From Kordia sp. SMS9 (GTDB taxonomy: Bacteria > Bacteroidota > Bacteroidia > Flavobacteriales > Flavobacteriaceae), in the NCBI RefSeq assembly GCF_003352465.1, contig NZ_CP031153.1:5295501-5359500 (forward strand): DNA of 64,000 nucleotides, written 5' to 3'. The position numbers and the translations under genes are program-made. Under the pieces are notes generated by a model, which saw nothing but the letters and a program-made list of their open reading frames with translations, made no database searches and was not told where the DNA came from. This document shows positions 44,647 through 64,000 of this stretch, piece by piece; the stretch's first letter is position 1, and each line of letters opens with the position of its first letter.

Positions 44647-44685
44647 TATTTTTATATAGCCTTGAGATGTTAAATAGTATTTTTT

Positions 44686-44970: not shown

Positions 44971-45148
44971 AAATTAATAACTAAAAATTTTACCAACAGT
45001 TTTTAGCTTATCGATTTTTAGAATATAAAAGTTATGAAGAATATATTTTTTATGTTTTATCGGTCACTTAATGGAGTAAGTATTTTTTAGATACAATTCA
45101 TAATTTGTGTAATACTATTGATATAATTTTCTACAAAAGTTAGTATTT

Positions 45149-45838: not shown

Positions 45839-45882
45839 ATCATTGTAAGTAATTTATTATATTTATACAAACTTTATAAGTT

Positions 45883-46990: not shown

Positions 46991-46999
46991 TTAAGTTTT

Positions 47000-49039
47000 C
47001 TATTGGAATTCTACATCAATACATTCAGAAAGCAGATATTTCAAATCAATCGACATATTGTACCCTGTTAAGCATTCGCCTGTATCGGTGTTTATCCAGT
47101 CGGTTGCATTAGACACAAACTCCCAAAGTTTATAATTTTCAACCGTGCGCACATTCGCTTCTTTTTCTTCTTGTTGAGGTAAGTTAAACCCAAAACGGTC
47201 AAATATTCGTTTTCCTTTCATTGCTGCGTTTATGTTATCCATAGCACGCGCATATATTTTCATATCCTTTTTAATACGCTTTTTGTCATTTGGGTTGGGT
47301 TCTGTAAAAACTTTAGTACCGTATTTAATCGTTTCAATCAAATCACGTTCTAAGTTTTCAACTGCTCTAAAATGCTGTGCTTTTCGTGTGCAATGAAACT
47401 TTCCGTTTCTGTTCCATTGTTTGCGCCATTCCTGTACTAAATAAAGTGCGGTTTCTCTGTTCGGCACAATAATATGATAATGCGGATTATATGTGTTTTT
47501 ACTAGGGTTAAAATTACATTCGAGAGACTTAATACCTATTAACCTCATCTTTGCGCCGCGATGGTGTCGCTGTCTACATCTATCATTTATTTTTCTGAAA
47601 GCTTTTTTCATTCCAAAAATCCAACGTTGTAATTTATCTGCCTTTACAGACTTTACGGTTAAGGTAACGAAATACGGGTTTTCCCAATTTTTTAAAACAG
47701 GATAGTATGTATGTATTTTATCTGCTTTACGGATGGCATTGCAGATTGTACAGTAACGTGTTTTGCAGTAATTGGTATGAAGCCTTTTATTATGTTCCGT
47801 TAGAGTTGTACAGCAGTAGTAAGCATTCCAGTAAGATTTTGCCCGCTCGGCTGCTCCCTTGTCTTTTGCTATGTCAGCTAAGCTAAATAACATTGCGCGG
47901 GAAATCGTTTTTCTTTTCGCTCTATTTATGAGTGATTCGTTACCTATCATTTCCGTGCCATCGCCCGCTATTTGTATGTGTTGAGGTTTTTTGCGCTCAT
48001 TGGCTGTCACGCTTTGTGCTAATGTATAAATCGTATGTAGATTTTTCATAACCTCTGCATTGAAGTTTATCTCATCTTTCAAAAACTTATTCCAAACCTC
48101 ACTTCTCAATGAATAAATTATTTTGCTGACGTCTTTATCATCCAATAGCTTTTTCTTTAATTTTGGTCTAGTTTCAAATATTTCATCAACTATTTTTTGT
48201 GATGATCTTATATAATTTAATCTAGTTTGTTTTATAAACTTATTGAAATAGTTTGCTACGCTTCTGTGTCTGGAGTGTTCTACTTGACAAATATTCTTGA
48301 GTTGATCGAAAATAGTTTCAATAATAGCTCTTTTTCTAAGATGATATGCGTCACTCATTGGTGTTAGTAATTTAGTTTTCATATTCTTTCTGAGTTTTGT
48401 TACTAAATGGATTCCACTAGTGAACAATTCAGTAAAAAGTGATTTAGAAATATATCCTTTATCGCCAAATAGTTTACCAAAAAGCTTTTTGATGAATGCC
48501 TTAAATCGTAAGGGTTTACGATCATCAGTATTACCTTTTGTTATCATAAAGTCAATAATACCACCTTGATCATTAGTAATAATATGTAATTTAAAGCCAT
48601 AGAACCAACCAAGCGAACATTGTCCACGCATAGCAATATTTTTAAAGACTTTATGTTGGTTAATGCGTCTTTTATCACAAACTCTAAGTGGTGTAGAATC
48701 TATAAAACTGATTCCTGTGCAATTGGCTAAACCACAAACTTTAAGGTAAATAGCAAGTGGCATGAAGCTTTCTTTTTTAAGTTCAACCATACGATTGTAT
48801 GATACCAAAGTAGGAAACTCATTTTTTAAATGCTTACAGACATATCCTAAATAAAATTCTTTAAATGTTTTATAGCCTGATAAGTGAAAAATCACTTGAA
48901 TAGTCATTACCTCAGCCAAGTTCATTTTAGTGTTACGAATACGTTTTTTACCATTAGAGAGTAAGTTTTTGTGCCAAAAAGGAACAAATTCTTGACAAAA
49001 ATCATCAATTGAGCAGAAAATTTCAGTAATTTTATCCAT
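47000..49039 (-). CDS. In-frame fusion of IS982-family transposase and Rep_1-type replication protein, 679 aa
   Basis: Residues 1 to about 268 are an IS982 transposase: the DDE residues are D114 (SFIDSTPL), D193 (FGDKGYIS) and E241 (AIIETIFDQLKN). The usual transposase stop is missing. From about residue 330 the protein is a pC194/pUB110-like rolling-circle Rep: Cys cluster C425, C430, C433, HUH motif NPHYHIIVP (H520, H522), candidate catalytic Tyr Y573 (IETIKYGTK) and the family signature MKGKRIFDRFGFNL. The frame stays open across the joint. It might be an inactivated rep disrupted by an IS, or an expressed chimera. It points to an integrated plasmid or mobile element next to tmRNA. Confidence 0.8.
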   Translation of the reverse strand: MDKITEIFCSIDDFCQEFVPFWHKNLLSNGKKRIRNTKMNLAEVMTIQVIFHLSGYKTFKEFYLGYVCKHLKNEFPTLVSYNRMVELKKESFMPLAIYLKVCGLANCTGISFIDSTPLRVCDKRRINQHKVFKNIAMRGQCSLGWFYGFKLHIITNDQGGIIDFMITKGNTDDRKPLRFKAFIKKLFGKLFGDKGYISKSLFTELFTSGIHLVTKLRKNMKTKLLTPMSDAYHLRKRAIIETIFDQLKNICQVEHSRHRSVANYFNKFIKQTRLNYIRSSQKIVDEIFETRPKLKKKLLDDKDVSKIIYSLRSEVWNKFLKDEINFNAEVMKNLHTIYTLAQSVTANERKKPQHIQIAGDGTEMIGNESLINRAKRKTISRAMLFSLADIAKDKGAAERAKSYWNAYYCCTTLTEHNKRLHTNYCKTRYCTICNAIRKADKIHTYYPVLKNWENPYFVTLTVKSVKADKLQRWIFGMKKAFRKINDRCRQRHHRGAKMRLIGIKSLECNFNPSKNTYNPHYHIIVPNRETALYLVQEWRKQWNRNGKFHCTRKAQHFRAVENLERDLIETIKYGTKVFTEPNPNDKKRIKKDMKIYARAMDNINAAMKGKRIFDRFGFNLPQQEEKEANVRTVENYKLWEFVSNATDWINTDTGECLTGYNMSIDLKYLLSECIDVEFQ

Positions 49040-49143: not shown

Positions 49144-49980
49144 TTAATGAACTTGAAATTTGGTACTGTGTAGTCTTTTTTCATCTAGCCATAATTCAAA
49201 AGTGTAAATTCCTTTCTCATAAGCATTTCCGTTTTTATTTCCCCATCCGTTTAAAAATAGATATTTATAAGACCTTTTATTGGTATTTATTCTTCCTTTA
49301 TAAATATAAGAATAGCCCATTGGTGATGATGTTCCAAGCATTAAAGTTCCATCAGGTTTAAAAATTTTTATTTTAAATTTGAGTTCTTTTTCATAATAAA
49401 GTGGACTCAAATAGGTAATTCGCGGATACACATATTTAACATTTGAATAAATTTTACTTCCGTATGCCTTATTGTCTTGTTGAAATGAAATATTAGACAC
49501 TATAATAGTCTTATTACTTTCTATTAGATCTTGTAGATCACTATTTTTATCGACAAGATTTTGAATGTAATTTTGAGTTTTTTGATTTTCTTGCTTTAAG
49601 CTAAATACTTCTAGATATGCCGTCTCTTTTTGAATATGCTCACTATTATATGTACTATACCAATATATGGTAAGACTGAAAAAAAGAAGTGCTATTAATG
49701 TAGAGACTATAAAATGATTAATATAACTTTTGGTGATTACGGTTGGTATTTCTTTTTTACCATATTCAGTATTTGGTATGTAGGCTAATGTTTTTGTTTG
49801 TTTACAACATTGTCCTCTTTTCGTATTTTCCCAAACTTCATGTAAATATACAGTTTTACATACAGCGCATACACACACTTCATCACCAACTTTGAGTAAC
49901 TTTTTTGTTACAGGATCTACACGATGATCTGCAAGTATTGAAGTATGCTTTTTTCTGTTGATGATGATAGTGTTGCTCAT
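49144..49980 (-). CDS. Membrane-anchored protein with N-terminal Cys-rich domain, 278 aa
   Basis: Residues 1-70 are a Cys-rich domain (IIINRKKHTSILADHRVDPV, then VGDEVCVCAVCKTVYLHEVW) with C36, C38, C41, C58 and C59. The same domain occurs in 51847-52836 and 59308-60408. One transmembrane helix (HFIVSTLIALLFFSLTIYWY, near 88-108) is followed by a coiled coil and a beta-rich C-terminal domain of about 120 residues ending GIYTFELWLDEKRLHSTKF. The Cys domain would lie in the cytoplasm. Function unknown; it may anchor an assembly of the conjugation system. Confidence 0.6.
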   Translation of the reverse strand: MSNTIIINRKKHTSILADHRVDPVTKKLLKVGDEVCVCAVCKTVYLHEVWENTKRGQCCKQTKTLAYIPNTEYGKKEIPTVITKSYINHFIVSTLIALLFFSLTIYWYSTYNSEHIQKETAYLEVFSLKQENQKTQNYIQNLVDKNSDLQDLIESNKTIIVSNISFQQDNKAYGSKIYSNVKYVYPRITYLSPLYYEKELKFKIKIFKPDGTLMLGTSSPMGYSYIYKGRINTNKRSYKYLFLNGWGNKNGNAYEKGIYTFELWLDEKRLHSTKFQVH

Positions 49981-50583: not shown

Positions 50584-51645
50584 TTAGTTCGGGATCGTCC
50601 TGTAGAGTCCCAAAATCCCAAAAAGCAAAGGTATATGCAAAGGTATTACCATATAAAAAGAAAAAAATATAGATAAATCAGATAGAGCAAAAACTAAACA
50701 AAGACCAACAAGATAACTAAAGAATATAACGGGAACATATTTTTGCTTGGGTATGCTAGGAGATCTCCAACAAAGACCTATTTGTTCATAGATAGGTTTG
50801 AGTGCGTACCTTAGGATGGGTTTAAACGGTTTTGAGGCACTGCTACGATATCCTGCATCGTGGCATATACTAACCTTGGAGCCAAAATTTTCATCAAAAT
50901 ATATAATAGCACTTATACTGGCAATACCAAAGAATACTGTTTTATCTAAATTTGGAAATTCTATATCATGATCTAACTTTAGTCTTTGTTTAAAATTTAC
51001 ATATATATCCTTATTAAATGGAATGAGAAAAAGTAGTTTTTTAGGAGGTACTAATTCCATTGCTTGATCTATTTCCCATTTTAAGTGTTCACCTTCTCCA
51101 ATTCTGACCAGTACAAAAGCGGAAGTTTTCATCAAGTACTTTATTCTTTCTCTCCATTCTCTGCTTTCGAAATTGATTTGAATGGCTCCTGCATTTGGCA
51201 GTTCTGTTTGGGGATTTGCTGCTGATATAAATTTTCCAAATCGATTGAACTCACTAGCTAGAATTTCTTCTTCTGTGGTTAGTTGAGGTAAATCAACACC
51301 TCTGATTTGATAAGCAGGTTGGGTTTTGGATGTAATGAAGTCATCCGTAAATGATCGAAGATATAATACCGTATTATCCGCTTCGGATTCTGAGAAAATA
51401 GTAGCCTTGTATTTAACAGTTATTTTTTTTTCTCTAAGAATAAGATAGTGTCCAATTTTAATTATAGCTAGACAAAATATGAAAACCAATAAAAGTGATA
51501 CTGCCCAAAAGAGTAATTCTAGACTAAAGCCAACCCTAGTGACTTTATAACCAGCAGATACTATACCTATAGCTCCTATTCCATATAAAATATATCCTGT
51601 TATTTTAAAAAATATTCCTAAAATATATAGTCGCTTTTTTTCCAT
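50584..51645 (-). CDS. Membrane protein with central nucleotide/TIR-like domain, 353 aa
   Basis: Two helices at the N-terminus (residues 8-30 and 42-62), a cytoplasmic domain of about 200 residues and two helices at the C-terminus. The central domain contains TVLYLRSFTDDF, EEEILASEFNRFGKFISAAN, EWRERIKYLMKTSAFVLVRI and LKWEIDQAMELVPPKKLLFL. This Rossmann-like order (strand-D, W-E-I helix, strand) recalls TIR/STALD-type domains found in bacterial conflict systems and in uncharacterised actinobacterial membrane proteins. I cannot name the family. It is a candidate effector or sensor of the array. Confidence 0.5.
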   Translation of the reverse strand: MEKKRLYILGIFFKITGYILYGIGAIGIVSAGYKVTRVGFSLELLFWAVSLLLVFIFCLAIIKIGHYLILREKKITVKYKATIFSESEADNTVLYLRSFTDDFITSKTQPAYQIRGVDLPQLTTEEEILASEFNRFGKFISAANPQTELPNAGAIQINFESREWRERIKYLMKTSAFVLVRIGEGEHLKWEIDQAMELVPPKKLLFLIPFNKDIYVNFKQRLKLDHDIEFPNLDKTVFFGIASISAIIYFDENFGSKVSICHDAGYRSSASKPFKPILRYALKPIYEQIGLCWRSPSIPKQKYVPVIFFSYLVGLCLVFALSDLSIFFSFYMVIPLHIPLLFGILGLYRTIPN

Positions 51646-51846: not shown

Positions 51847-52836
51847 TTACAACGCTTTAATTTGATACTCCCATTCAAAAAAGTTCATATAGTATATACC
51901 TTTATCGTGTGGACCTTGGATAGAAATGGTATTATCTGAAATAGGATACTCATCATAATCACTTATAGATGTTAAGCTAACATTTCCTTGATTCGTCATA
52001 TAATATTCTCCTTTATTCACCATACAATTAAACTTTAAGGTTCCTAAACCATCTTTTATAGAACCATTATATGCCTCACAAACCAATCTATCATTTTTAT
52101 CATAGATTAATGCTCTCATAAAACCTTGACCTTCTGCTTCAATTTTAACAGATTTAAAATAGATTGGTCGATGAACTGTAAAACTTATTTTAGTTGGAGT
52201 TTTACCAGATTCTAGAGAGTAATTATGAATTTCTTCATATTTAACTCCAGTTATGAATTTTTTAGATGATAAAACAGTATTTGCATTTTTCACTTTAGCA
52301 GATAGCCTTTCTGACCTTTGAGAAGATAAATCTAATCTAGTTTGCAATTCTTGTTTCTCTTTGTTAAGTACTGAGATTTCATTTTTTAGGTGTGTTATGG
52401 TACTATCTAATTTATTTTTATCATTATGAGTAGAAGCATATTTGTCTTGCTGCTGTTCAAAAATTGAAGTATATTTATTTTGTATTGTCTCATTTTCAGT
52501 ATATAAATAATAACAACCTGCACAAGCGATAAAAGTAGTTACAAGGAAAAAAACAAATATTCCTTTGTATGATTTTTCAGCTTTTTTTGAAGAATATTTT
52601 TCCTTTTTGAAATCAATATTTGTAGCATTTGGAATTTCTTTTAGTGTTAAGTTTTGATCACAACAACTATTTCTTTGGGTATTTATCCAAACATCTTTCA
52701 AATAGACTGTCTTGCATTTAGCACAAACGCATACCTCATCTCCAACTTCAAATAGTTTTTTAGTTATTGGATCAGTACGATGATCTGCCAAAAAAGAGAG
52801 GTGTTTTGACCTACTGATGATTATTGAATTATTCAT
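51847..52836 (-). CDS. Membrane-anchored protein with N-terminal Cys-rich domain, 329 aa
   Basis: Residues 1-70 (IIISRSKHLSFLADHRTDPI, then VGDEVCVCAKCKTVYLKDVW) are the same Cys-rich domain as in 49144-49980, with C36, C38, C41, C58 and C59. A transmembrane helix (IFVFFLVTTFIACAGCYYLY, near 92-112), a coiled coil (about 120-185) and a beta-sandwich-like C-terminal domain of about 140 residues follow. Its ATG overlaps the end of the UEV-JAB-TM fusion gene by 8 bp, so it belongs to the conjugation operon. Role unknown; membrane scaffold or substrate are possible. Confidence 0.62.
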   Translation of the reverse strand: MNNSIIISRSKHLSFLADHRTDPITKKLFEVGDEVCVCAKCKTVYLKDVWINTQRNSCCDQNLTLKEIPNATNIDFKKEKYSSKKAEKSYKGIFVFFLVTTFIACAGCYYLYTENETIQNKYTSIFEQQQDKYASTHNDKNKLDSTITHLKNEISVLNKEKQELQTRLDLSSQRSERLSAKVKNANTVLSSKKFITGVKYEEIHNYSLESGKTPTKISFTVHRPIYFKSVKIEAEGQGFMRALIYDKNDRLVCEAYNGSIKDGLGTLKFNCMVNKGEYYMTNQGNVSLTSISDYDEYPISDNTISIQGPHDKGIYYMNFFEWEYQIKAL

Positions 52837-54364
52837 TTTTATTCACTAAAGAATCCTTGAGAGTAGAATTTTGTATTAAAATAGGTTGCTTTATACTATC
52901 GATAAGTAAAGTATCATTATAGATGATGTTATCTAAATTAGTATCGTGTGTATGTGATTCTTTTATCTCATTTGGAATAGGATCATTTTCTTTAATTACT
53001 TCATCTTTTTGAATCACTAGATAAATACTAAATACTATCACCGTCAGTAGAAAGATTGTTGAGCTCAGAATTATCAAGCCTTTTTTTTTAAAGCTATTAT
53101 TACTCGATTTTTCTTTAGTATCATCAGCGTCTGTATAATTTACATCATCATCTTTCAGTACGTATCCTTTGCATTCTTCAGCCTCTTTACCTACAAAAGC
53201 TTTCCAAATTTCCTTATGAGGGTTTAGTATGACAGCATAATGCCAATTTTGATTGAAAAAGCGATATTGAGTATTCATATCTGTACCTGACATATATAGA
53301 CTCAACTCATTTGGATGTGTGTGATACCAGCCAATTACTTGAATATTATCGTTTTTTTCTTCGGCTATTTCATCTGCATCGTTTAACATTTGTGACCAAG
53401 TTTCATGTGACATTTCTAAATACGTAGGATTTCCCTTAGCTGTTTTACCTATCACAATATCCTCCACGATTGCAAACTGCATTTTTCTTTTTTTATCAAA
53501 AAATACTTTTCCCAGAAGAATACCTCCTTGTTCGTTTTTATTTATCGAAGTCTTATGATTCCCCCATTCAATGTGATTCCATATTTGTTGTTTTGCTTTT
53601 TGAGATATGAACAGCAAACTATCAGATTGAATATTTTTATTTCTGGAGTTGAGATTTTCATCGATTTTAAAATCTTCTTCTGTTAATTCTTTTTCTTCAA
53701 GTTCATATTTTTCATTAGCTGTTATATTGAATCTTTTTTTGATTTTAAACTGTGCTTTTTTACTAGAACTTCTCTTGTTTTTATCTGAATCAATATTGAA
53801 CTTTGGTTTTTTAATTTGTTGATTTGAATCTGAGGGTATTAGTTCTTCTAAAAAAGTATCTGTTGGGGGAATGTTTTTATCTCTGACTATTTGATCTGAA
53901 TACCACTGATAAGCTTTTTTATTTCCAATATTATCAGGGTTGATGTAATTTTTATGAAATTGTAGGGATAGAATCATTTCTTTCACATAATCTACAACAC
54001 TATCATGTTTTCTTAAAGAGCCAACCCATAATGCCTTTTTATTAAATAATTCTATTTGAGTATACTTATTTAATAAATCCAAGTATGGAATAGGACTAAG
54101 AAGCCTGAAGTTTGGATGATAAGGTACTTCTAATCCTTCCTTAATAAAAATCTTATAAATAACTTTAGAATCATTTTTCTTTTCCAGTACTAGTTGAAAT
54201 TTAAACCCTTTTCCGATTTCACCTTTTGAAATGTAACTTTTCACTTTCAAAGTAAAATCTACAATGTAAGAGCCTTTTTTAACATCTAAATAATTGATTT
54301 TGTTTTCTTGGAAAAAGCTTAATAGTTCTTGTAATTCTCTGTCAATTGATTTTCGTATTTCCAT
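52829..54364 (-). CDS. Fusion of inactive E2 (UEV-like) domain, JAMM peptidase and transmembrane helix, 511 aa
   Basis: Residues 1-160 resemble the E2 of the operon: YHPNFRLLSP matches the E2 P-x-x-Y-P block, and WVGSLRKHDSVVDYVKEMIL plus YQWYSD match its C-terminal helices. The catalytic Cys position is occupied by Trp/Val, so it is predicted inactive. A linker (180-245) has four F-x-I motifs, including KRFNI at 210-214. The JAMM peptidase domain (245-405) keeps E278, H348, H350, S359 and D362. A helix at 430-452 anchors it. It probably removes Ubl at the membrane. The following Cys-domain gene overlaps its stop. Confidence 0.78.
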   Translation of the reverse strand: MEIRKSIDRELQELLSFFQENKINYLDVKKGSYIVDFTLKVKSYISKGEIGKGFKFQLVLEKKNDSKVIYKIFIKEGLEVPYHPNFRLLSPIPYLDLLNKYTQIELFNKKALWVGSLRKHDSVVDYVKEMILSLQFHKNYINPDNIGNKKAYQWYSDQIVRDKNIPPTDTFLEELIPSDSNQQIKKPKFNIDSDKNKRSSSKKAQFKIKKRFNITANEKYELEEKELTEEDFKIDENLNSRNKNIQSDSLLFISQKAKQQIWNHIEWGNHKTSINKNEQGGILLGKVFFDKKRKMQFAIVEDIVIGKTAKGNPTYLEMSHETWSQMLNDADEIAEEKNDNIQVIGWYHTHPNELSLYMSGTDMNTQYRFFNQNWHYAVILNPHKEIWKAFVGKEAEECKGYVLKDDDVNYTDADDTKEKSSNNSFKKKGLIILSSTIFLLTVIVFSIYLVIQKDEVIKENDPIPNEIKESHTHDTNLDNIIYNDTLLIDSIKQPILIQNSTLKDSLVNKNE

Positions 54365-54366
54365 AA

Positions 54367-54966
54367 TTAGCTTTTTAAAATATATCCATTACATTCTTTG
54401 GCATCTAATCCACTAAAAGCTCTCCATATCTGCTTTTGAGGATTTAAAACAATGGCAAACTGCCAATCTTTAGAAAACATTGTTCGTTGCGTATGTAAGT
54501 CTGTCCCAGACATAAATACAGATAATCTTCCTGGATGTGTATGATACCACCCGATTACTTGTAATTCTTCATTTTTTTCAGAATCGTCATTCATAGCATC
54601 AAGATTATCCATCATTAATTTCCATGTATGATGATCAAATTTCAAATATGCCATAGAACCTTTGGCAGTAAGCGCTGGAATTGCATTTTTAGCGTAACCA
54701 ATGATTCTCTTCTTTTTTTTATCTTCATAAGAATGACCTATTAATAATCCGCCTTGTTCTACCGAATTATTAGCTGTATCCTTATTCCAATCAATATGAC
54801 CAAAAATAGTTTCCTTTGCTTTTTGAGAAAGAAATATCTCATTTAGTGTTCCTAGTTTTTGGATATCAGAATCGTATTCATCATTCTTTTCTAGCGAAAT
54901 GTTTTTTTCTAATAGTTTTGGAATATATTCACTAACCGTTTCGTGTATACTAAATTTCTTATTCAT
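54367..54966 (-). CDS. JAB/JAMM deubiquitinase-like metallopeptidase, 199 aa
   Basis: The zinc site is complete: E70 (VEQGGLLIG), H142 and H144 (GWYHTHPGRLSVF), S153 and D156 (MSGTD). The N-terminus MNKKFSIHETV carries the operon motif KKFSI at residues 3-7. JAMM enzymes of bacterial Ubl operons trim Ubl precursors and reverse conjugation. The protein closely resembles the JAMM part of the downstream 511-residue fusion (ITQ/GWYHTHP, LNPxKxIWxAF, ECxGYxLK), so the two are duplicates. It lies 2 bp before the fusion gene. Confidence 0.88.
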   Translation of the reverse strand: MNKKFSIHETVSEYIPKLLEKNISLEKNDEYDSDIQKLGTLNEIFLSQKAKETIFGHIDWNKDTANNSVEQGGLLIGHSYEDKKKKRIIGYAKNAIPALTAKGSMAYLKFDHHTWKLMMDNLDAMNDDSEKNEELQVIGWYHTHPGRLSVFMSGTDLHTQRTMFSKDWQFAIVLNPQKQIWRAFSGLDAKECNGYILKS

Positions 54967-54978
54967 ATTATTTTAGTT

Positions 54979-55524
54979 TTAACAACCATCTGTTGCCGGA
55001 ATTATTCTAATCGTATCATTATCTTGGATAGAATTTTGAGAAAGTGTTCTTGTATTATCTAACTGATGAGCTCCTTTAAGTACAAGATTATACCCATCAT
55101 CACAAGCAGGCACAAAGTCATTAGCAATCAACTCTGATACTATTTGTTGCCCAGTCATAATATCATCCAAAGTGACTGAAATAACTCTTCCATCAGTTGG
55201 GTGCATAAAATTTACATTGATAACCTCAGTCTTAACAGGGCTTATCTCGTTGCTTCTAATAGTATTTTTTTTATTTGTTTTTTCAGGTGATACGTTATTA
55301 TTACCTAGAAGATTTCCTCCTATAAATGTTAACTCATATCCTTGACTATTTGCAAGTATAAAGTCATTTGCTATCAATTCACTTATAATTTCGCCTCCAG
55401 TCATTGTATTATCTATTGTTATACTAATGAACTTACCATTTATAGGATGCATGAAATTTAAGTTAATAGATTTTTGATCGAGAATTTTGAATTTCTTTTT
55501 TATTCTATTGTTAAAAGTGTTCAT
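54979..55524 (-). CDS. Tandem ubiquitin-like protein, 181 aa, ending Gly-Cys
   Basis: Two beta-grasp repeats of the YukD/Ubl type: residues 20-75 (NLNFMHPINGKFISITIDNT) and 102-181 (NVNFMHPTDGRVISVTLDDI). Both carry the MTGxxIxSELIANDF segment. The first lacks the last strand; the second is complete and ends DTIRIIPATDGC, so the chain ends in Gly180-Cys181. The N-terminus has the motif KKFKI at 10-14. It closely matches the single Ubl at 56721-56999 but lacks its tail. It may be a conjugated poly-Ubl or a fixed binding platform. JAMM genes flank it on both sides. Confidence 0.82.
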   Translation of the reverse strand: MNTFNNRIKKKFKILDQKSINLNFMHPINGKFISITIDNTMTGGEIISELIANDFILANSQGYELTFIGGNLLGNNNVSPEKTNKKNTIRSNEISPVKTEVINVNFMHPTDGRVISVTLDDIMTGQQIVSELIANDFVPACDDGYNLVLKGAHQLDNTRTLSQNSIQDNDTIRIIPATDGC

Positions 55525-55544
55525 GTTATATTTTTTGAGTTTAT

Positions 55545-56129
55545 TTACTTAAGTACAAATCCTTGACATTCATGAGCTTTTTTACCGTTAAAAGCCTTCC
55601 AAATTTGTTTTTTCGGATTTAAAACAATTCCAAATTGCCAAGGCAATGGAAACATTTTCTGCATATCCATATCCTTTTCTGACATATAAACTGAACGGAT
55701 TCCTTTGTGAGTATGATACCATCCTACAACATATTCTTTATTGGCAACAGTTTTATTTTTATTATAGATATCTAATTTGCTTAGCATGACTTGCCATGAA
55801 TCGAATCCATACTTTTTTTCATTAATTGAATCCTCTTTAACAACTGCTGGAATAATTGACGTAACTATAGAATAATAGAATCTTTCAGAACTATTCAAAT
55901 ATGGTTTTCCTATTAACAAACCTCCTTCTTCATAAGCATTAGTAGCGATTTTGGCTCCCCAATTTATTTCTTTAAATAATTGTTTTCGTGCCATAGCCGA
56001 AATATAAATTCTACTTGAACAACTGTAAGTTGAATTCAAAGAATTAAACCTATCAAGTGTTTCAAAGTTTAATATATCCTGTTCTTTTGGCTCATGAAGA
56101 ATAGTTTTATTTATGTGAAAAAAATACAT
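55545..56129 (-). CDS. JAB/JAMM deubiquitinase-like metallopeptidase, 194 aa
   Basis: A second stand-alone JAMM protein. E67 (YEEGGLLIG), H139 and H141 (GWYHTHKGI), S150 and D153 (MSEKD) form an intact zinc site. The C-terminus (LNPKKQIWKAFNGKKAHECQ) matches the other two JAMM domains, but the rest has diverged more. The N-terminus MYFFHINKTI holds a loose F-x-I motif. It sits between the E2 and the tandem Ubl genes. Three JAMM domains in one operon suggest separate jobs, such as Ubl maturation and deconjugation. Confidence 0.86.
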   Translation of the reverse strand: MYFFHINKTILHEPKEQDILNFETLDRFNSLNSTYSCSSRIYISAMARKQLFKEINWGAKIATNAYEEGGLLIGKPYLNSSERFYYSIVTSIIPAVVKEDSINEKKYGFDSWQVMLSKLDIYNKNKTVANKEYVVGWYHTHKGIRSVYMSEKDMDMQKMFPLPWQFGIVLNPKKQIWKAFNGKKAHECQGFVLK

Positions 56130-56190
56130 ATTTCAGTTTTATTGATTGGCTACTTAAAAAAGAAAAATATGTTCTTTATAAGGCTCAGCC

Positions 56191-56724
56191 TCAATTAATT
56201 TTGAATTTTTTCTTTGCTTGAAATTGCATTGTCATTTTCTTCTTTGTAGGATCAGGAAGTATTGTGCTATCGCAAGGAAATATACCGCTACGTTTATGAG
56301 ACTTGTACCAATTATTTGCACTTGAATTGGCGGGACTATTTTCATTAGTAATGTCTAAATCGTACTGTAATGTACGTATCATTCTTATGATATGATGTCC
56401 TAAGCCTTCAGACATTAACCATGTTCCATAACACCATTTTCCAGCTCTATACCAATTTGGGTGGTATACAATGGGTTTTGATATCATTTCAACCTGTGGC
56501 GCTGCAATCGGATAATTTGGAGGTAGCTTTACAGTAATAGTATGTGAGTTTCTATACTTAGGACCTTCTCCTACAATACCTCTAATATTAATGGTTACTT
56601 CATATTCCTCAACATACGGAGGAGTGCCTTTTGTAGCTTTCCAAGAAATTATACTTCCTTTTATATTGACCATTTCTGTATGGTCATTTTTTAACCGTAA
56701 GTTTCTTATTTCTTGTGGTGTCAT
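56191..56724 (-). CDS. E2-like ubiquitin-conjugating enzyme, 177 aa
   Basis: The E2 (UBC) fold is clear: strands EYEVTINIRG and SHTITVKLPPNYP, then IVYHPN at residues 85-90 and the catalytic Cys98 (GKWCYGTWL). HPN-x7-Cys is the same spacing as in eukaryotic E2 enzymes. C-terminal helices (GHHIIRMIRTLQYDLDI, NNWYKSHK) follow. The protein ends KKKFKIN, the operon motif at its extreme C-terminus (172-176). It would receive the Ubl thioester from the E1 and pass it to a target. Its start overlaps the Ubl stop by 4 bp. Confidence 0.88.
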   Translation of the reverse strand: MTPQEIRNLRLKNDHTEMVNIKGSIISWKATKGTPPYVEEYEVTINIRGIVGEGPKYRNSHTITVKLPPNYPIAAPQVEMISKPIVYHPNWYRAGKWCYGTWLMSEGLGHHIIRMIRTLQYDLDITNENSPANSSANNWYKSHKRSGIFPCDSTILPDPTKKKMTMQFQAKKKFKIN

Positions 56725-56999
56725 ACGCTCTGATTTGAAGAATTTAATTGTCCCGCATCTGTTGCTGGAATTACTCTAATGGTATCGTTGTCTTTAACAG
56801 CATTTTGAAAAAGAGTTCTTGCATTATCCAATTGAGCGCCACCTTTTATTGCCAAATTGTACCCGTCACCACTTGCTGGCACAAAATCGTTTGCAATTAA
56901 CTCTGCCACAACTTCTTGTCCTGTCATGGTGTCTTCTATTGTTACAGAAATTACTCTTCCGTCTGTTGGGTGCATAAAATTTACGTTTACATCTGCCAT
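56721..56999 (-). CDS. Ubiquitin-like protein (Ubl) with C-terminal tail, 92 aa
   Basis: A single beta-grasp domain (NVNFMHPTDGRVISVTIEDT, VVAELIANDF, DNDTIRVIPATDAG). It ends with a nine-residue tail after Gly83 (QLNSSNQSV), so a peptidase must cut it before adenylation if Gly83 is the active end, as known for bacterial Ubls in related operons. The fold is YukD-like and not ThiS/MoaD, because E2 and JAMM genes accompany it. It overlaps the E2 gene by 4 bp and follows the E1 gene by 10 bp. Confidence 0.86.
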   Translation of the reverse strand: MADVNVNFMHPTDGRVISVTIEDTMTGQEVVAELIANDFVPASGDGYNLAIKGGAQLDNARTLFQNAVKDNDTIRVIPATDAGQLNSSNQSV

Positions 57000-57009
57000 A
57001 ATTTTGATT

Positions 57010-58248
57010 TTAATTAATTGATTTTAAAATTGTGTTATCTGCTAGTTTATAATATTTATATTCGTTTTGTTGATTTAATACTGCGAGAATTTGCATGTGC
57101 GGTACGCCTAATTGATGTAATGTGAAATTAAGGAGTTCTTCATCTGAATTTTCTAGACTAAATTGTTCTTGAGAAATTTTATGTGTTTGAATTTCTTTAT
57201 CCGTCTTTGAATAATTACTACCTCCATCTTTACACTTTTTACAAATAAATTCTTCTGCGTCAATTCTAAAAGTGGGACGCATTAGTTTAATTTGAGAATC
57301 ACAAGTTCTACAAGAAACACTTTTGATAAAACTTCTGTCTCCTCTAAAGTCTAACGAAGCACCTTCTCCTGAAAATTCATCTTGTGTTATATGTTCTAAA
57401 AAATCCTTTAGTTTAATATGTACGTCTAATGATAGCTCAGTTACATTAGGGTAACTTGCATGTGCTGTACAACTTTCATTTATATTTTTAGAAAATATAT
57501 CAAAGTCATTGTTCTTCCCTTGGAAGTATATTTTTTTTCCGATGGCAACTTCTTGACCACATAAAAACTTAACAGCTTCTTGTACTTGTATGGCTGACAC
57601 AATCGCTGAAGTAATTTGAGTTGTAGGCATTTTATCTTCTTCAAACGCTTTTAATTTTGCTTGATCGCAAGAATATCTTTTATTTGAGTTTGCGAGTTGA
57701 TTAGGTGTTAGGTTACATTCGTAACATGGTAGTTGTGGCGGATGGTAAAATTCTACTCTCAAACCTAATTCATACATGCCGCTATCAATCCATGGTGTTT
57801 TTGTGAGCCAGCATTGCCTGTTGATTGACATGCGAGCCTCTACATTATCTAAACAACCTAATACTAGATCCATTTCATCATAGATTCCTGTGCCAAGTTC
57901 CCAAACTAAGTCTCCATGAAACCAGTCTATATTTATATCATCATTGAATGCTAGTTCCTTTACTCTTTTTGCAGCTACTTCAGCTTTCTTCTTTCCAACA
58001 TCATCTTTTCGAAATAGCACAGTTCTACTTAGATTAGATGTATTTATAGTATCAAAATCTACAATAAATATATTTCCGATTCCCAGTAATGCTAAATTTT
58101 TCAGGGTTTCATTCCCTATGGCTCCAGCTCCTACAACCATTATTTTTGCATTTTTCAGTTTGTCTTGACTCCACCATGATATTCGTTCTTGCCTATCAGT
58201 TGGGTTTTCTTCAAAATTTATACTGTTTTTAATCTCGAATTTTTTCAT
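57010..58248 (-). CDS. E1-like (ThiF-fold) activating enzyme, 412 aa
   Basis: A single adenylation domain: nucleotide loop VVGAGAIGN (residues 38-46), IVDFDTINTSNLSRTVLF (62-79, with the Asp and Arg that bind ATP), K87/K88, and MPTTQITSAIVSAIQVQEAV (207-226). C175/C178 form a CxxC; Cys194 (RYSCDQ) is a candidate catalytic Cys. A C-terminal zinc ribbon (C313/C316, C336/C339) replaces the usual fold domain. The N-terminus MKKFEIKN bears the operon motif at 2-6. It lacks the N-terminal inactive adenylation domain of larger bacterial E1s. It activates the Ubl and loads the E2. Confidence 0.88.
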   Translation of the reverse strand: MKKFEIKNSINFEENPTDRQERISWWSQDKLKNAKIMVVGAGAIGNETLKNLALLGIGNIFIVDFDTINTSNLSRTVLFRKDDVGKKKAEVAAKRVKELAFNDDINIDWFHGDLVWELGTGIYDEMDLVLGCLDNVEARMSINRQCWLTKTPWIDSGMYELGLRVEFYHPPQLPCYECNLTPNQLANSNKRYSCDQAKLKAFEEDKMPTTQITSAIVSAIQVQEAVKFLCGQEVAIGKKIYFQGKNNDFDIFSKNINESCTAHASYPNVTELSLDVHIKLKDFLEHITQDEFSGEGASLDFRGDRSFIKSVSCRTCDSQIKLMRPTFRIDAEEFICKKCKDGGSNYSKTDKEIQTHKISQEQFSLENSDEELLNFTLHQLGVPHMQILAVLNQQNEYKYYKLADNTILKSIN

Positions 58249-58260: not shown

Positions 58261-58569
58261 TTACCAGATAAAATCACATCCACCTTTTTCAATACTACAC
58301 TTCCATCGATTATTATGTTTAATAATTGTTCCGGATGAATTACATCTTGGACAACTTCTAGGACGACTGCTATTTATAATATTAAATTTCTCATCTTTTA
58401 CAGGAACTCTTCTCCGATTGGTGATCTGAAATTTTTTATTTGTTGGGTTGTTGATGTTAAAGGTTTTTTTTTCTGTTTCAGTTATGTCATTATAGATTTG
58501 TTCAGTATGTATTTCTTCTTCTGAAAACATATTCTTAATTTTTCGCCATGCTCGTGATAAAAAATTCAA
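58261..58569 (-). CDS. Small adaptor-like protein: three F-x-I motifs plus zinc ribbon, 102 aa
   Basis: Apart from the N-terminal helix (NFLSRAWRKIKNMFSEEEI), residues 30-70 look disordered and hold KTFNI (35-39), KKFQI (45-49) and EKFNI (60-64). Residues 73-98 are a zinc ribbon (C73, C76, C91, C98; SCPRCNSSG, KCSIEKGGCDFIW). Nothing catalytic is present. Multiple copies of the motif found once in other operon proteins suggest a bridging scaffold. It lies 12 bp before the E1 gene and 1 bp after the two-helix protein gene. Confidence 0.6.
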   Translation of the reverse strand: MNFLSRAWRKIKNMFSEEEIHTEQIYNDITETEKKTFNINNPTNKKFQITNRRRVPVKDEKFNIINSSRPRSCPRCNSSGTIIKHNNRWKCSIEKGGCDFIW

Positions 58570-58570: not shown

Positions 58571-59305
58571 TTATTCTGTTTTTTGATGTTGTTTAATATT
58601 ATGCACCTCTTTTATGAGCGTCTTGAGCATAAGAGTATTTTGCTTTTTCATACTCCATTCGTTGGGTCGAGGATGCCAATCAAATAGTACATCAAATAAA
58701 CGAGCACATGCTTTTTCTTTTTGATCTTGATTTACACATATTGCGTTTATTATAGCGGGATAACTTCCCATTATGTGTATGGACTCACATGCTTTGTGAT
58801 AATGTTTTAATGCATTTCGATATTGGTATATTAGTAATGCTATTATCGCACTGAACGGAAGTAATACCGATGTTCTATATATAATTTGAGTAGATATTGC
58901 TGTATCCAACCAATTTTTATAATGTAAAGGAAGAATTAAAAGAAATATTAATGTTATAACAGTTATTATGGTTAAGCTAAAAAACAACCAATATTGAAGC
59001 GAATATTTACGTTTATCTCTTTGAAAAGGTTTTTTTTCGGGTTTTAATAAGTCTTTTAAATCTTCAATCCCTTTACTAACAGTATTCGTTGTACCATTAG
59101 CTATTTTTAATAGGTTTATTTCTGATTGTTTCTCTTTAATTACATGACGTAATATTTTTAAGATGATTTCAGTTCCTTTTTCTTTATCAGTAGATTTTGT
59201 TGAGACATAATCGTTAATTTCTATGACAAACTCTGCAGGATAATTGATTTCTTCAGTTTCAATTTCATCTTGTATTGCCACAATTGTATCTGAAAGTATT
59301 CCCAT
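58571..59305 (-). CDS. Two-helix membrane protein, 244 aa (possible effector)
   Basis: A soluble N-terminal part of about 120 residues (AEFVIEINDYVSTKSTDKEK) is followed by two adjacent helices (YWLFFSLTIITVITLIFLLI and VLLPFSAIIALLIYQYRNAL) and a C-terminal helical part with HKACESIHIMGSYPAIINAI. The two-helix hairpin flanked by helical domains resembles SLATT-like or other pore-forming effectors of bacterial defence loci, but no signature proves it. It lies 2 bp downstream of the TIR gene and 1 bp upstream of the zinc-ribbon gene, so they are co-transcribed. Confidence 0.5.
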   Translation of the reverse strand: MGILSDTIVAIQDEIETEEINYPAEFVIEINDYVSTKSTDKEKGTEIILKILRHVIKEKQSEINLLKIANGTTNTVSKGIEDLKDLLKPEKKPFQRDKRKYSLQYWLFFSLTIITVITLIFLLILPLHYKNWLDTAISTQIIYRTSVLLPFSAIIALLIYQYRNALKHYHKACESIHIMGSYPAIINAICVNQDQKEKACARLFDVLFDWHPRPNEWSMKKQNTLMLKTLIKEVHNIKQHQKTE

Positions 59306-59307: not shown

Positions 59308-60408
59308 TTATCCTTTTTTGGTTTGAATGTTATAAATAATTTTTAATAGTAGTTCATAGAATTTTTCAATTAAAAAGCTATTCTTTACATTAATTGGTAC
59401 TAACAAAAAACCTATCCTATCTTGCAACTCAGAATTTGAACTATATGAAAATATTATTCCTTTTGTATTGACTAAAGATTCTAATACTAACACATAAGTG
59501 TTAGTGGTCACTGATAAAAGTTTACAGCTATCTAGGTTTATGAAATTGAAATATATTTCAACACTTAAAAGAATTTTATTTTCAATGTAAAACTCAAGTA
59601 CTACTTTGTCTTTATCACATAAGACTTTATTAAATAATAATTCTGTATTGACCAAATGCAACTTAAAATGTATTAGAGGAATTATATCACATAACTCTTC
59701 AATAATTTTTTCAGTATCCATTTTAAAATCATTTAGCACAGTATTTGGTAATTCTGTTAATGTTTCACTTTGATTACAATGAATATTCAAAAAATGTAAT
59801 GTCCATATATCTTTTAAAAATACCATCCTACACTTCTTACAAACAACAACTTCATCTCCGACACCAATTAACTCTTTACTGACAGGGTCTTTTCTTTGAT
59901 CAGCTAAAAATGCTTCGTGCTTGTTCCTATTAATTGTTATAACATTAGGTTCATTTACCAGATTAGAATTATTACTTTCAGGTTTAATTCTATTTTTTTT
60001 AATTAATCTTTTATTGATTGTGTTAGCGATAGCTTTAGGATCTGAATTCCACTTTATATATGCTATTTTTTTTATCGTAACTGGAAGTTCTGTATTCTCA
60101 TACAATATTGGAATGAAATAATTTGCGTCTGTTTTTAATCGCTCCAGTATAACCTTTAATTCAAGCTGCGTGTATTCTCCTAGAAGATATTCTTCTGAAA
60201 GAATTGCTAAAGCAATTTTAGCAGAATCTCTAAATAATTTAGTCAGATTATCTCCTAATTCAAACCCTGCATTCTCCTCTTGATTATAAGGATAGTAATA
60301 AGTATTAATATTTAATCTTTCTAAAGCTATACATATACCTGCTGCAATATCTTTTTGAGCTTCTGAGAAAGAAATAACAACATCGTATTTGTGATTTAGT
60401 ATTTGCAT
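59308..60408 (-). CDS. TIR-domain protein with Cys-rich domain, 366 aa
   Basis: Residues 7-135 are a TIR domain: YDVVISFSEAQKDIAAGI, ALERLNINTYYYPYN, AILSEEYLLGEYTQLELKVI with the candidate NADase Glu83, and FIPILYE. Residues 155-222 are the Cys-rich domain seen in 49144-49980 and 51847-52836 (ITINRNKHEAFLADQRKDPV, VVVCKKCRMVFLKDIW), with C190, C193, H210 and C211. The last 140 residues are an unknown alpha/beta domain. TIR enzymes in defence systems deplete NAD or make signalling molecules. It leads a transcript that continues through the E1, Ubl and E2 genes. Confidence 0.75.
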   Translation of the reverse strand: MQILNHKYDVVISFSEAQKDIAAGICIALERLNINTYYYPYNQEENAGFELGDNLTKLFRDSAKIALAILSEEYLLGEYTQLELKVILERLKTDANYFIPILYENTELPVTIKKIAYIKWNSDPKAIANTINKRLIKKNRIKPESNNSNLVNEPNVITINRNKHEAFLADQRKDPVSKELIGVGDEVVVCKKCRMVFLKDIWTLHFLNIHCNQSETLTELPNTVLNDFKMDTEKIIEELCDIIPLIHFKLHLVNTELLFNKVLCDKDKVVLEFYIENKILLSVEIYFNFINLDSCKLLSVTTNTYVLVLESLVNTKGIIFSYSSNSELQDRIGFLLVPINVKNSFLIEKFYELLLKIIYNIQTKKG

Positions 60409-60522: not shown

Positions 60523-62385
60523 TTACTCTTCTTCATAGTAGTCGATACTTTTAACACCATAATTTGATTGATTTAAAGGCAATTCTAACGAATCTTGCAA
60601 AATCATTTGTATACTTTTATTTATCTTTTCAATACTTGAATTCAACTCTCTTTTTCGTTCTTCATCATCGGACACAATAGCTTCCACAAGCAATTCTGTT
60701 AATTCTTCTCTCTTTTTAGTCAATGCACCTATCACAGGATTATTCGTATTTCCATTACATACTAATATTCTCGTCAAGTATGGTTCTCCTAAAAGAACTC
60801 CATATTCGTTTGTAATTTTACTTTGAGTATTTTCAAATAATCTGGTTATATAAAGATCAATATCTCTAGCATCTTTTTCTTTTAATGAAGTGCTGTCATT
60901 ATATTTAAATGCTAACTCAATGTTGCTCTTTATATCGCTAGAAATATCCTTATACTCCAATGAAGTATTACCATAGTATTTTATTTGATTTTTATGAAAA
61001 CTATCCCAATTACTAACATCTATGATGTTAAATTTTATTTCATAACAAGCTACATTATCGTTACTGTAGATGATTATTCTACCTCTTTCGGCTTTTAATA
61101 AATCAAACCGCTCTTTTATATCAGTATCTAAAAAGCTTATTGAAATACTAAAATCATTTTCATCAAGTTTAAAGTTTTCAAAAAGTTTTAAGGTAATTTT
61201 CTCTTTAATAACACTAAAGACTTTTCTGGAACTACTGTAATAATCAGAAGGAATAACTTTTCTCATTTGTTTGCTAATTATTTCCTTGGTCATTTTTTTT
61301 ATTGCATCAATAATTGATTTTTTTGGCTTTATATATTTTTTATGAATTCCATTAATTCGTGTTCCTTTACCTTCTACAGTAACACTTAGCCTAATTTTAA
61401 TACCTGCTTGTGAAGTTTCGAAAGTATCCTCTTCCCCTATTGTAAATGTAAATCCATTAATAAATTCTTCAATCTCTTCACTAGGAATAGAAATGATATG
61501 TTCTACTGAATATCCAATTTCTCTTACAGCTTTTTCCAGTTCTGAACTAATATTTTTTTTATATTTTGATTTAAATCCATCTACCACATCTCGAAATGTT
61601 TTTTTTATTAATTCATTTTGGATGATAGTATCTACTTTTCGTTTAATCCATTCTTCGGGATTTTCAATTTTTTTCAATGAAAAAATTCTTCTATCCTTTA
61701 GATTTAGAACAATTTTATTTTTTACTTCTATAGTACTATCTTTAATTTCACAAGGTGTTGAATGAACAATTGCAATATGTTCAAATAGGGAATCAATATT
61801 TGAATCCGCTACTTTAAAAGGATTAGTTATCATATTAACTACAGACAACCCTATATGTTTAGAAATTTTATCTATAATTTCTCTATTTAGTTTATTTTCA
61901 AGACTTACAAATTCTGTTAGAAAATCGGGGTGATTATTAACAAAACTACGAACCCAGCTCGTGATTGTATGTTTTAAGATAGTGAGAGCTTCATTTAAAT
62001 TATTTTTAAAAAACAAGATTACGTTTTCTCCCCTTGATTCAATACAACTTACTTCAAATGACATTTTGAGTTCAATCATCATTCCACTTTTGGGATCACT
62101 TATTTCACAGGTTAAATCCTTTACTCTTGAAAAATTAGACCAGTTTACTATGTAATGACTATAGGTTCTTCCCATAAATGAATCTCTCAAGATAGTAAAT
62201 CCATCTTGCCTTTTTGGCTCTCCTTTTTTATCATCAATAATGACTAGCTCCTCATTATCTGTATCAATATTTATCGCTTTAGGATTAACTTTTCGGATAA
62301 TATTTTCTAGGATATTTAAATTTATAGAAGAAGGATTTTCTTTTATTATAAATTTTTTAGGATTATCATTAAAATTTGTCATCAT
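60523..62385 (-). CDS. Large protein, possibly SPFH/band-7-like, 620 aa
   Basis: The N-terminus MMTNFNDNPKKFIIKENP holds the operon motif KKFII at 10-14. Residues 60-200 (ILRDSFMGRTYSHYIVNWSN, SGMMIELKMSFEVSCIESRG, then a helix to VVNMITNPF) and 330-450 (SQAGIKIRLSVTVEGKGTRI) look like two strand-helix modules reminiscent of SPFH domains; this is a weak fold guess. The C-terminus is acidic (VKSIDYYEEE). There is no membrane helix. Its start overlaps the stop of the gene upstream. A 114-bp gap separates it from the TIR gene. Confidence 0.5.
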   Translation of the reverse strand: MMTNFNDNPKKFIIKENPSSINLNILENIIRKVNPKAINIDTDNEELVIIDDKKGEPKRQDGFTILRDSFMGRTYSHYIVNWSNFSRVKDLTCEISDPKSGMMIELKMSFEVSCIESRGENVILFFKNNLNEALTILKHTITSWVRSFVNNHPDFLTEFVSLENKLNREIIDKISKHIGLSVVNMITNPFKVADSNIDSLFEHIAIVHSTPCEIKDSTIEVKNKIVLNLKDRRIFSLKKIENPEEWIKRKVDTIIQNELIKKTFRDVVDGFKSKYKKNISSELEKAVREIGYSVEHIISIPSEEIEEFINGFTFTIGEEDTFETSQAGIKIRLSVTVEGKGTRINGIHKKYIKPKKSIIDAIKKMTKEIISKQMRKVIPSDYYSSSRKVFSVIKEKITLKLFENFKLDENDFSISISFLDTDIKERFDLLKAERGRIIIYSNDNVACYEIKFNIIDVSNWDSFHKNQIKYYGNTSLEYKDISSDIKSNIELAFKYNDSTSLKEKDARDIDLYITRLFENTQSKITNEYGVLLGEPYLTRILVCNGNTNNPVIGALTKKREELTELLVEAIVSDDEERKRELNSSIEKINKSIQMILQDSLELPLNQSNYGVKSIDYYEEE

Positions 62386-64000
62386 CAGTTATTTAATAAA
62401 TTTATAAATTGAATTAGAGAATCTCGCTCTTTCTTTAATTGTTGTTTTTCGGAAAAATCTTTAATTGCGATAATCTGTTTATTCAAAAAAGAACGATTTC
62501 TCTCAAGCCCCGTCTTTATTTTTTTAAGTTGATCTTTTCTTAAAGTGTTCAGTATAATATCTATTAAAAATTGTATTTCTTCTTCAATCGTTGTGTTTGA
62601 AATATTCAACTCTTGTATTTTCTTAAGAATTTGATACCAAAAAACAATTAATTCGGTTAACTGATTTTGAATTTTCTTAAAGACATACTCTTTTTCTTCT
62701 TCTGATATCAAAAGAATATTTAACATATTACTGACTACTATATTGAGGTATCGTTTACATTTGGAGCGGTCTTGAAAAATCGCTTTGTAAGTATCTGAAT
62801 TTAATGGAGTATTATTTTTTTCATATCGTTTATCACTTGTCATTTGCTTTGTTAAAACATCAAAAAGAATTATCACCACATTTTTTTCTAATTTTGTGTA
62901 TTCTTGGAAGGATTTGCCATTTTCTGGAAACCAATCCTTAATTTTAGAAAAGTACATGTAAAAATCAGATGATTGCGCTGATAACAAATCACAAAATGCT
63001 GTTATCGCAATTTCGTTCAAATTTTTATTCGAATGTATTAACGATTGTTTGTAATATTCAAATGTGTTGAAAGTTTCGTTTTTAATTTGAAATTTAGTGA
63101 TTACATCAAGTAGTATAAAATGATGATAAATTAATCTTAAACTTTCGGTAAAGAAATCAGAAATCAGCTCATCAGACTCATCTTTTTCATGAATAGTACT
63201 TAATAAATCGACATATAGATATACATTTCTACTCAAATTATTAGACGCTTTATTATGATCATTATTAGTTACATGTAGCTGTTCTAAGAGTGTTTCTTCT
63301 AAATCATATAGTCCACTAAGTATTTCTTCAATTGATACACTTTCTGGAATACCTTCTTCTTTATGAAATAGAAATCTCATAAACTGTAATTCGTCTAGTA
63401 AGTCATCGTGTTGTTGTCTAAATCGAATTGGAGTGATTTTTCTTAATCGTTTAATTTTATCTTCTTCATCTTTAATATTTTTTAAAAGTCGAAGTTCATT
63501 AATCTTATCAATAACGCCTTTTCTATCTGCTTTTATTTTTTTGAACTTTTTCTTAATATAGAGTATTTCTTTCCGTTCATCTTCTAATTGCAATAACCAT
63601 TTTTTTAACAACTCGTCTCCATAGTAATTTTTAAATTGCATTGCTAATTTTGCAATAATAGGGTGCATTTTATAATGCAATTTTAGAGAAGCTTTAGAAG
63701 TAAAAAGATGTTGTTGATCTATTAATAACCTTGCATTTCTTTGAGCAAAAAATGTAAGTTCCTTAAATACAAAAGATTCCCGCTCTGTATTTTCTGCAGA
63801 AGACTTGAAATCAATAAAATACTGATTATCTTTTCGATACGTCTCCAAATTACATTCATCAAGAATTAAATCAGAATCTTCTTCCCATAGATTTAATAGT
63901 GAAATTTTTTCTCCGTTAATTTTGATTTTTTTTCGTTTTTTCAATAGTATATGTAAGTATTCTATAAACATATCAGGAGAAAGTTCTGGGAATAATGTAG
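62385..64000 (-). CDS. Partial large helical/coiled-coil protein (continues beyond the window)
   Basis: An ATG lies at 63971, but the frame is open and protein-like to the window edge (TLFPELSPD), so the gene is probably longer and its start is missing. The visible 537 residues are mostly alpha-helical and Lys/Glu-rich, with a likely coiled coil around residues 115-200 of the 63971 numbering (LEDERKEILYIKKKFKKIKA) and another near the end (TGLERNRSFLNKQIIAIKDF). No family is recognised. It overlaps the following 620-residue gene by one base. Confidence 0.5.
   Translation of the reverse strand, partial: TLFPELSPDMFIEYLHILLKKRKKIKINGEKISLLNLWEEDSDLILDECNLETYRKDNQYFIDFKSSAENTERESFVFKELTFFAQRNARLLIDQQHLFTSKASLKLHYKMHPIIAKLAMQFKNYYGDELLKKWLLQLEDERKEILYIKKKFKKIKADRKGVIDKINELRLLKNIKDEEDKIKRLRKITPIRFRQQHDDLLDELQFMRFLFHKEEGIPESVSIEEILSGLYDLEETLLEQLHVTNNDHNKASNNLSRNVYLYVDLLSTIHEKDESDELISDFFTESLRLIYHHFILLDVITKFQIKNETFNTFEYYKQSLIHSNKNLNEIAITAFCDLLSAQSSDFYMYFSKIKDWFPENGKSFQEYTKLEKNVVIILFDVLTKQMTSDKRYEKNNTPLNSDTYKAIFQDRSKCKRYLNIVVSNMLNILLISEEEKEYVFKKIQNQLTELIVFWYQILKKIQELNISNTTIEEEIQFLIDIILNTLRKDQLKKIKTGLERNRSFLNKQIIAIKDFSEKQQLKKERDSLIQFINLLNN

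Follow-up and report, generated by a model that had tools for sequence, protein, structure and literature searches.

Ubiquitin-like protein (Ubl) pathways of bacteria are likely roots of eukaryotic ubiquitin signaling, and few of them have been studied. Prokaryotic Ubl systems with a RING-type E3 were reportedly described by Burroughs, Iyer and Aravind in 2011. Combinations of Ubl, RING and caspase components were predicted earlier in the FtsH-ternary conflict systems (PMC7159879), inactive E2-like proteins and tandem Ubls were predicted in type 6e operons (PMC1779556), and the Bil systems use an E1 with inactive and active adenylation domains and an E2 (BilB) with a CEHH motif (PMC11354881). 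The locus described here lies in a 64,000-nucleotide stretch of the Kordia sp. SMS9 genome (contig NZ_CP031153.1, positions 5,295,501 to 5,359,500), hereafter the window, and is a run of minus-strand genes in which E1, E2, Ubl and JAMM protease genes are accompanied by genes for RING-like, TIR and caspase proteins. In our judgment it is probably a RING-type Ubl conjugation module that regulates caspase and TIR effectors within a caspase/TIR conflict island. Coordinates refer to the window unless a related locus (L number) is named.

Composition of the conjugation operon

An initial sequence-only reading of the window had proposed an E1–E2–Ubl–JAMM conjugation operon of seven genes on the minus strand between 58248 and 52829 (E1, Ubl, E2, JAB1, tandem Ubl, JAB2 and a JAMM fusion). 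The seven genes were recovered at these positions, and all four enzyme types carry their catalytic residues. The proposed limits proved too narrow, however, as co-directional genes continue on both sides, with caspase, TIR and 881-amino acid (aa) genes past the window end and a membrane RING-like protein (51847–52836) at the lower end. In transcription order the run comprises a sensor kinase, response regulator, 260-aa gene, caspase, TIR and 881-aa gene; a 620-aa gene, TIR–RING-like fusion, 244-aa membrane protein, 102-aa zinc-ribbon protein, E1, Ubl and E2; and JAB1, tandem Ubl, JAB2, a UEV–JAMM–transmembrane (TM) fusion and the RING-like–TM protein. The first six of these genes lie wholly or partly outside the window (the continuation is L018), and intergenic gaps from the 620-aa gene through the RING-like gene range from −8 to 114 bp. 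Because gene order is kept in four Kordia genomes, a chance run of open reading frames (ORFs) is excluded on comparative grounds.

The E1 (57010–58248; ThiF Pfam, 2.5e-53) is a 412-aa protein with a single ThiF stretch at residues 27–259, i.e. one adenylation domain. Its landmarks are a CxxC pair (175/178), Cys194, which was invariant in the eight E1s compared, C260/H263, and a C-terminal extension with a CxxC...CxxC zinc ribbon. The combination of one adenylation domain and a C-terminal ribbon, as first proposed, therefore holds for this protein, but the ribbon is missing from group B relatives. Assignment to the MoeB/ThiF cofactor enzymes was ruled out, and the proposed separation from them upheld, by scores below both NCBIfam equivalog cut-offs (MoeB TIGR02355, 99.4 versus 376.55 bits; ThiF TIGR02356, 127.5 versus 275.25 bits); the E1 profile scored 131 bits against eukaryotic E1/UBA2 adenylation domains versus 107 bits against MoeB/ThiF. 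The E2 (56191–56724; UQ_con, 4.6e-8, over the gathering score) has the anticipated HPN-x7-Cys98 active site (H88-P89-N90), keeps the SPAN motif, and matches eukaryotic E2s by sequence, with UBE2A as its best PDB match (E=1.2e-7).

Three JAB domains, all over the Pfam gathering score, retain every JAMM residue, in agreement with the count made from the sequence: JAB1 (55545–56129; E67, H139, H141, S150, D153), its paralog JAB2 (54367–54966; E70, H142, H144, S153, D156), and JAB3 within the fusion protein (52829–54364; E278, H348, H350, S359, D362), which also has a TM segment at residue 429. The N-terminal part of the fusion aligns to the operon's E2 family (hhalign 95.4%, E=1.9e-8), with HPN kept and the catalytic Cys absent from the alignment, and by this comparison the fusion partner is an inactive UEV-like E2 domain. 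Because its profile matched no solved E2, the assignment depends on the profile–profile match to the E2 family of this operon.

The single Ubl (56721–56999) gave a sub-threshold match to Pfam YukD (E=0.019) and has a predicted mature C-terminus of ...PATDAG once QLNSSNQSV is removed. It is ∼75% identical to domain 2 of the tandem Ubl (54979–55524), which is full-length, ends in PATDGC, and is predicted by AlphaFold2 to adopt a ubiquitin fold (predicted local distance difference test score, pLDDT, about 85; Z up to 12.8), superposing on ubiquitin and ISG15 at Z of about 12. The expected tandem Ubl is thus present, although its domain 1 is truncated and has neither the final strands of the fold nor a Gly tail. 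As a side observation, such a domain might take a strand from a partner. The Ubl tails of relatives mostly reach Gly and then either stop or run on for a few removable residues, and the C-termini (AG|x, GG|K, GG|Y or G|C) match the expectation for JAMM trimming.

The suggestion that three JAMMs and two Ubls mark a distinct subtype was not sustained: L014 and L015 have two JAMMs and L005 a single one, and no locus besides the window and L004 has the JAB1–tandem Ubl pair. The additional JAMM (JAB1) and the tandem Ubl are a local duplication.

The RING-like proteins, inactive E2 domain, TIR and caspase genes, and the shared motif discussed below formed no part of the sequence-only reading. A RING-like module occurs in three proteins of the island and nowhere else in the genome: the TIR fusion (59308–60408; TIR_2, 4.9e-10; module at ∼residues 155–223), RING329 (51847–52836; module at residues 1–68, then TM and coiled coil), and RING278. 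The three share the consensus R-DP[IV][ST]...GD-V-C-x2-C...W...[CH]C, and Pfam Prok-RING_1 matched the modules only below threshold (E=0.006). An AlphaFold2 model of the 51847–52836 module, built from 13 sequences, reached a pLDDT of 77.7, and its 19 best superpositions were all RING E3 domains (Z 4.9–6.5, with 8 as the safe level). We read the modeled module as a RING with one zinc site lost and DPIT replacing CPIC. A related L032 protein has Cys/His at the lost positions (ICHYC...CKHIMHVHC), with a zf-RING score below cut-off. The RING-like proteins may have E3 activity, and that encoded at 51847–52836, the gene of which overlaps JAB3 by 8 bp, is a candidate membrane E3. The L032 protein (L032:2937-5327) is of vWA type, and its fuller RING-like zinc finger (ICHYC...CKHIMHVHCW) could represent an ancestor form of the degenerate module.

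A motif shared among the components

Most components share a short motif, K[KR]Fx[IV], which is found in 7 of 19 island proteins where 0.56 would be expected (0 of 5000 shuffles); the 38 ORFs in the rest of the window contain it a single time. It is located at the N-terminus of E1 (MKKFEI) and JAB2 (KKFSI), at the C-terminus of E2 (KKKFKIN) and in linkers, including that of the UEV–JAMM fusion (KKRFNI); the tandem Ubl (KKKFKI) and the 620-aa protein (KKFII) have N-terminal copies, and the motif is always absent from the single Ubl. Cyanobacterial loci L073–L075 have the same KKFxI-type motif as Kordia, and each divergent group has another shared motif instead (IxI-basic, LNWR or IxW). In the divergent Bacteroidia group, with tails such as GKKKIVIKKK, KPEIKIYKRN and IVIQKR, the system proteins contained the motif 22 times in 11,717 aa and neighboring ORFs 5 times in 11,433 aa. 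In cyanobacterial group C the motif is LNWR (E2 tail SQSSRQLNWR and JAB start SQLQWR in L077), and a VirD4/TraG-like ATPase has two to three LNWR copies in its C-terminal tail. The ATPase genes are at L012:10730-12460, L077:7104-8825 and L078:7484-9214.

The E2 tail matches the pre-JAMM region of its own group in a group-specific manner (0 of 20000 label permutations, the groups compared being clades), with a within-system mean of 22.1 versus 16.2±0.7 for shuffled tails. Because E2 and JAMM are not homologous, descent alone is insufficient to account for this match. No report of such a co-varying motif was met in the literature consulted on Ubl systems, in which no dedicated search for it was made.

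We infer that the shared motif is a docking tag that binds Ubl, with Ubl as the receptor. As a tentative extension, each lineage may have a private peptide (KKFxI, IxI-basic, LNWR or IxW) that co-varies across most of its Ubl-system components, namely the E2 tail and JAMM and, depending on the lineage, E1, adaptor, effector or ATPase, and that is read by its own Ubl. This would be a SIM-like (SUMO-interacting motif) assembly code, which in Kordia would drive a caspase/TIR death complex. Binding of the motifs to some other common partner, e.g. E1 or a RING-like protein, is possible if doubtful; it would agree with the absence of the motif from group C E1s and group A membrane RING-like proteins, but group A E1s themselves carry the motif. 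Furthermore, most Ubls are acidic (8 of the 9 checked have a net charge of −4 to −9), in contrast to the basic motifs of groups A and B, and absence from the single Ubl likewise speaks, if only indirectly, for Ubl itself as the partner. It is improbable that the peptides serve as acceptor sites for Ubl, through which the machinery would modify itself: lysine is abundant in the motifs of groups A and B and self-modification would control assembly, yet this reading is disfavored because the group C peptides, SQSSRQLNWR and SQLQWR among them, contain no lysine.

Distribution, island context and proposed role

Using the E2 as query, the cluster was found in 4 of 11 Kordia genomes, source genome included, with the order caspase–TIR–881–620–...–E1–Ubl–E2–JAB2–UEV/JAMM–RING kept in all four and the caspase and TIR genes upstream on the same strand. 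Relatives by E2 profile were present in 8 of 395 genomes of the same class (Bacteroidia) and in 14 of 339 genomes from the phylum of a cyanobacterial metagenome-assembled genome; none were detected in viral contigs or the phage collection, and Crinalium alone was recovered from the plasmid collection. The module is therefore uncommon and patchily distributed, a pattern expected of mobile genes. Its GC content is 0.29 in the island versus 0.345 in window positions 1–42000.

The caspase gene, beyond the window end in L018, has a Peptidase_C14 match of 2.5e-18 and catalytic AGHG/DCCHSG. Three other Kordia genomes also carry a histidine kinase–response regulator–caspase cassette, of which the source genome has one further copy, and in L056 the cassette additionally includes the 260-aa gene and a pair of ThsB-type TIR genes. 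Neighbors in L004 include a WYL gene and a restriction-type methylase. Given the caspase, TIR, WYL and methylase neighbors in Kordia and the recurrent cassette, we favor a defense or cell-death role with moderate confidence; phage defense is probably the setting in which the module acts.

The RING-type module could operate as follows. A JAMM protease would trim the Ubl behind Gly (...PATDAG), after which E1 would adenylate it, load it on Cys194 and pass it to Cys98 of E2; this thioester cascade and its substrates are putative. Membrane-anchored RING-like proteins would act as E3 scaffolds, and the membrane UEV–JAMM fusion would bind Ubl or E2 and strip the tag. If the basic–hydrophobic KKFxI motif docks most components on Ubl, then conjugation would nucleate assembly at the membrane, as we propose. 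The output would be control of the run's own TIR and caspase effectors, through either their activation or their release, and the infected cell would in the end stop growing or die.

It is rather unlikely that the operon instead performs housekeeping or stress-response protein modification and lies beside defense genes by chance of island location. Such a role would suit the cyanobacterial clusters L005 and L073–L075, which consist only of adaptor–E1–Ubl–E2–UEV/JAMM, mostly with a RING-like protein, and have neither caspase nor TIR, and protection against phage is reportedly yet to be demonstrated for Bub operons (PMC13373217). However, the order of caspase, TIR, 881-aa, 620-aa and E1 genes is fixed in the four Kordia genomes, the 881- and 620-aa genes overlap by 1 bp, a TIR domain is fused to a RING-like module, and the E2 is confined to just 4 of the 11 genomes.

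Several observations count against regulation of the effectors by a RING-type module with motif-based docking. The RING-like module is without two of the four ligand pairs, its highest Z of 6.5 falls below the safe level, and Foldseek returned no match for it at E≤0.001. A possible C-terminal ubiquitin-fold domain (UFD) of the E1 resembles the UBA3 UFD (1y8x) at E=1.0 only, which is not significant. The motif was noticed first and tested afterwards, the best E2–JAB 6-mer match differs from the motif in L030, L034, L073 and L075, and in the AlphaFold2 model of the tandem Ubl the motif is disordered. Lastly, the close cyanobacterial relatives, as noted above, have no caspase or TIR beside the cluster.

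A single gene run here brings together an HPN E2, an inactive E2–JAMM fusion, RING proteins of degenerate type, and caspase and TIR as effectors of the apoptosis type. Should regulation of these effectors by the module hold, it would be a bacterial counterpart of the way ubiquitin controls death signaling. The shared tail motif would offer a cheap, direct handle on how such systems assemble.

Other genes of the run and its surroundings were as follows. On the minus strand, the C-terminal part of the 881-aa protein is at 62385–63971, the gene reaching ∼65030 in window positions (full gene, L018:3886-6531; ortholog, L004:1741-4353), and its 1 bp overlap is with the 620-aa gene (60523–62385), which is 47–75% conserved in L004, L014 and L015. 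Neither protein has an assigned fold, and no family match over cut-off was obtained for them in Pfam, PADLOC or NCBIfam. The 244-aa membrane protein (58571–59305, minus strand) has a hydrophobic segment at residue 107 and orthologs in L004 and L015. The 102-aa adaptor-like protein (58261–58569, minus strand) has repeated KxFxI motifs and a C-terminal zinc ribbon, with orthologs in L004, L014, L015 and the cyanobacterial L005 and L073–L075. RING278 (49144–49980, minus strand), a second RING-like–TM protein and paralog of RING329, is separated from the run by two genes, and its membership in the same transcript is uncertain. A membrane protein at 50584–51645 has no family match and is weakly related (27% identity) to one encoded close to the L056 caspase cassette (15564–16256).

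At the island's edge (43820–49000), GC drops from ∼0.39 to 0.25 just beyond a transfer-messenger RNA (tmRNA) gene; tmRNA genes are a common integration site for islands. A single open frame at 47000–49039 appears, from its residues, to join an IS982 transposase to a rolling-circle Rep-like sequence, and a remnant of the Rep-like part is at the same island end in L014 (5643–5825). In L018 a ThsB-type TIR gene (9003–9536), encoded on the opposite strand, separates the response regulator from the 260-aa gene. The kinase–regulator–caspase cassettes (L056:6155-12011; L054:11498-15522; L055:8453-12314; L057:9078-12970) are followed by differing genes.

Related clusters of one Bacteroidia family are near type VI secretion genes, with L034 adjoining TssF and that of G710 about 18 kb off, and the L031 and L032 clusters are near Rhs or VgrG genes. 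These divergent E1–Ubl–E2–JAMM–vWA/RING/FHA clusters of other Bacteroidia (L034:97-3860; L032:16105-19651; L031:1093-5238) suggest a link between a Ubl pathway and secretion; a search of the literature for a connection of Ubl genes with Bacteroidetes type VI secretion found nothing.

Comparison with known systems

Bil (BilABCD) likewise combines E1, E2, Ubl and JAMM, with a Ubl that requires C-terminal trimming, and the operon was first compared with Bil and BUB-type operons. Judged by the features of Bil, membership in the Bil/Bub antiphage family now appears very unlikely: the four enzyme types are the same, a tandem Ubl is present, and the E1 weakly matches the BilD model (40.5 bits), but the E1 has a single adenylation domain, the E2 has HPN-x7-C in place of the CEHH of BilB (PMC11354881), and the RING-like, UEV, TIR and caspase parts are extra. 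The type 6e (polyUbl) operons of Iyer et al. 2006 resemble the locus in their tandem Ubl, inactive E2-like domain and metal-binding protein. In type 6e, however, JAB is mostly fused to E1 and the E2-like protein is only inactive, whereas the Kordia E1 is separate and its E2 has Cys98; this class was accordingly rejected. Type II CBASS (cyclic oligonucleotide-based antiphage signaling system) and 6A-MBL were rejected as well, the E1 and E2 being separate and not a fused E2–E1 Cap2. The 6A-MBL model scored 41.5 of 320 bits, and no CD-NTase or MBL match was obtained among the island proteins scanned.

The Caldiarchaeum-type archaeal E1/E2/small-RING/Ub/Rpn11 operons also hold E1, E2, RING, Ubl and JAMM together (PMC5654768, PMC6043591); in contrast, the Kordia operon is bacterial and has several JAMMs, an inactive E2 domain, death effectors and a single-Gly Ubl tail. 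The FtsH-ternary caspase/Ubl systems share E1, JAB, RING E3, Ubl, E2 and a caspase-like effector with the locus, and the caspase-like peptidase is found in the same operon in Kordia too. In those systems the Ubl is fused to E2 and EAD1 and occurs with vWA-MoxR and FtsH ATPases (PMC7159879), whereas the Kordia Ubl and E2 are separate and no vWA, FtsH or EAD match was found in the island genes scanned. The RING-type prokaryotic Ubl systems reportedly bring together E1, an E2 with a eukaryote-like active site, YukD-like Ubl, JAMM and a RING finger, and the Kordia E2 has the same eukaryote-like HPN feature; Kordia differs in its UEV–JAMM–TM fusion, degenerate RING on TM and TIR proteins, caspase and TIR genes, and tail motif. 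The nearest counterparts of the operon are the RING-type prokaryotic Ubl systems and the caspase/Ubl conflict systems.

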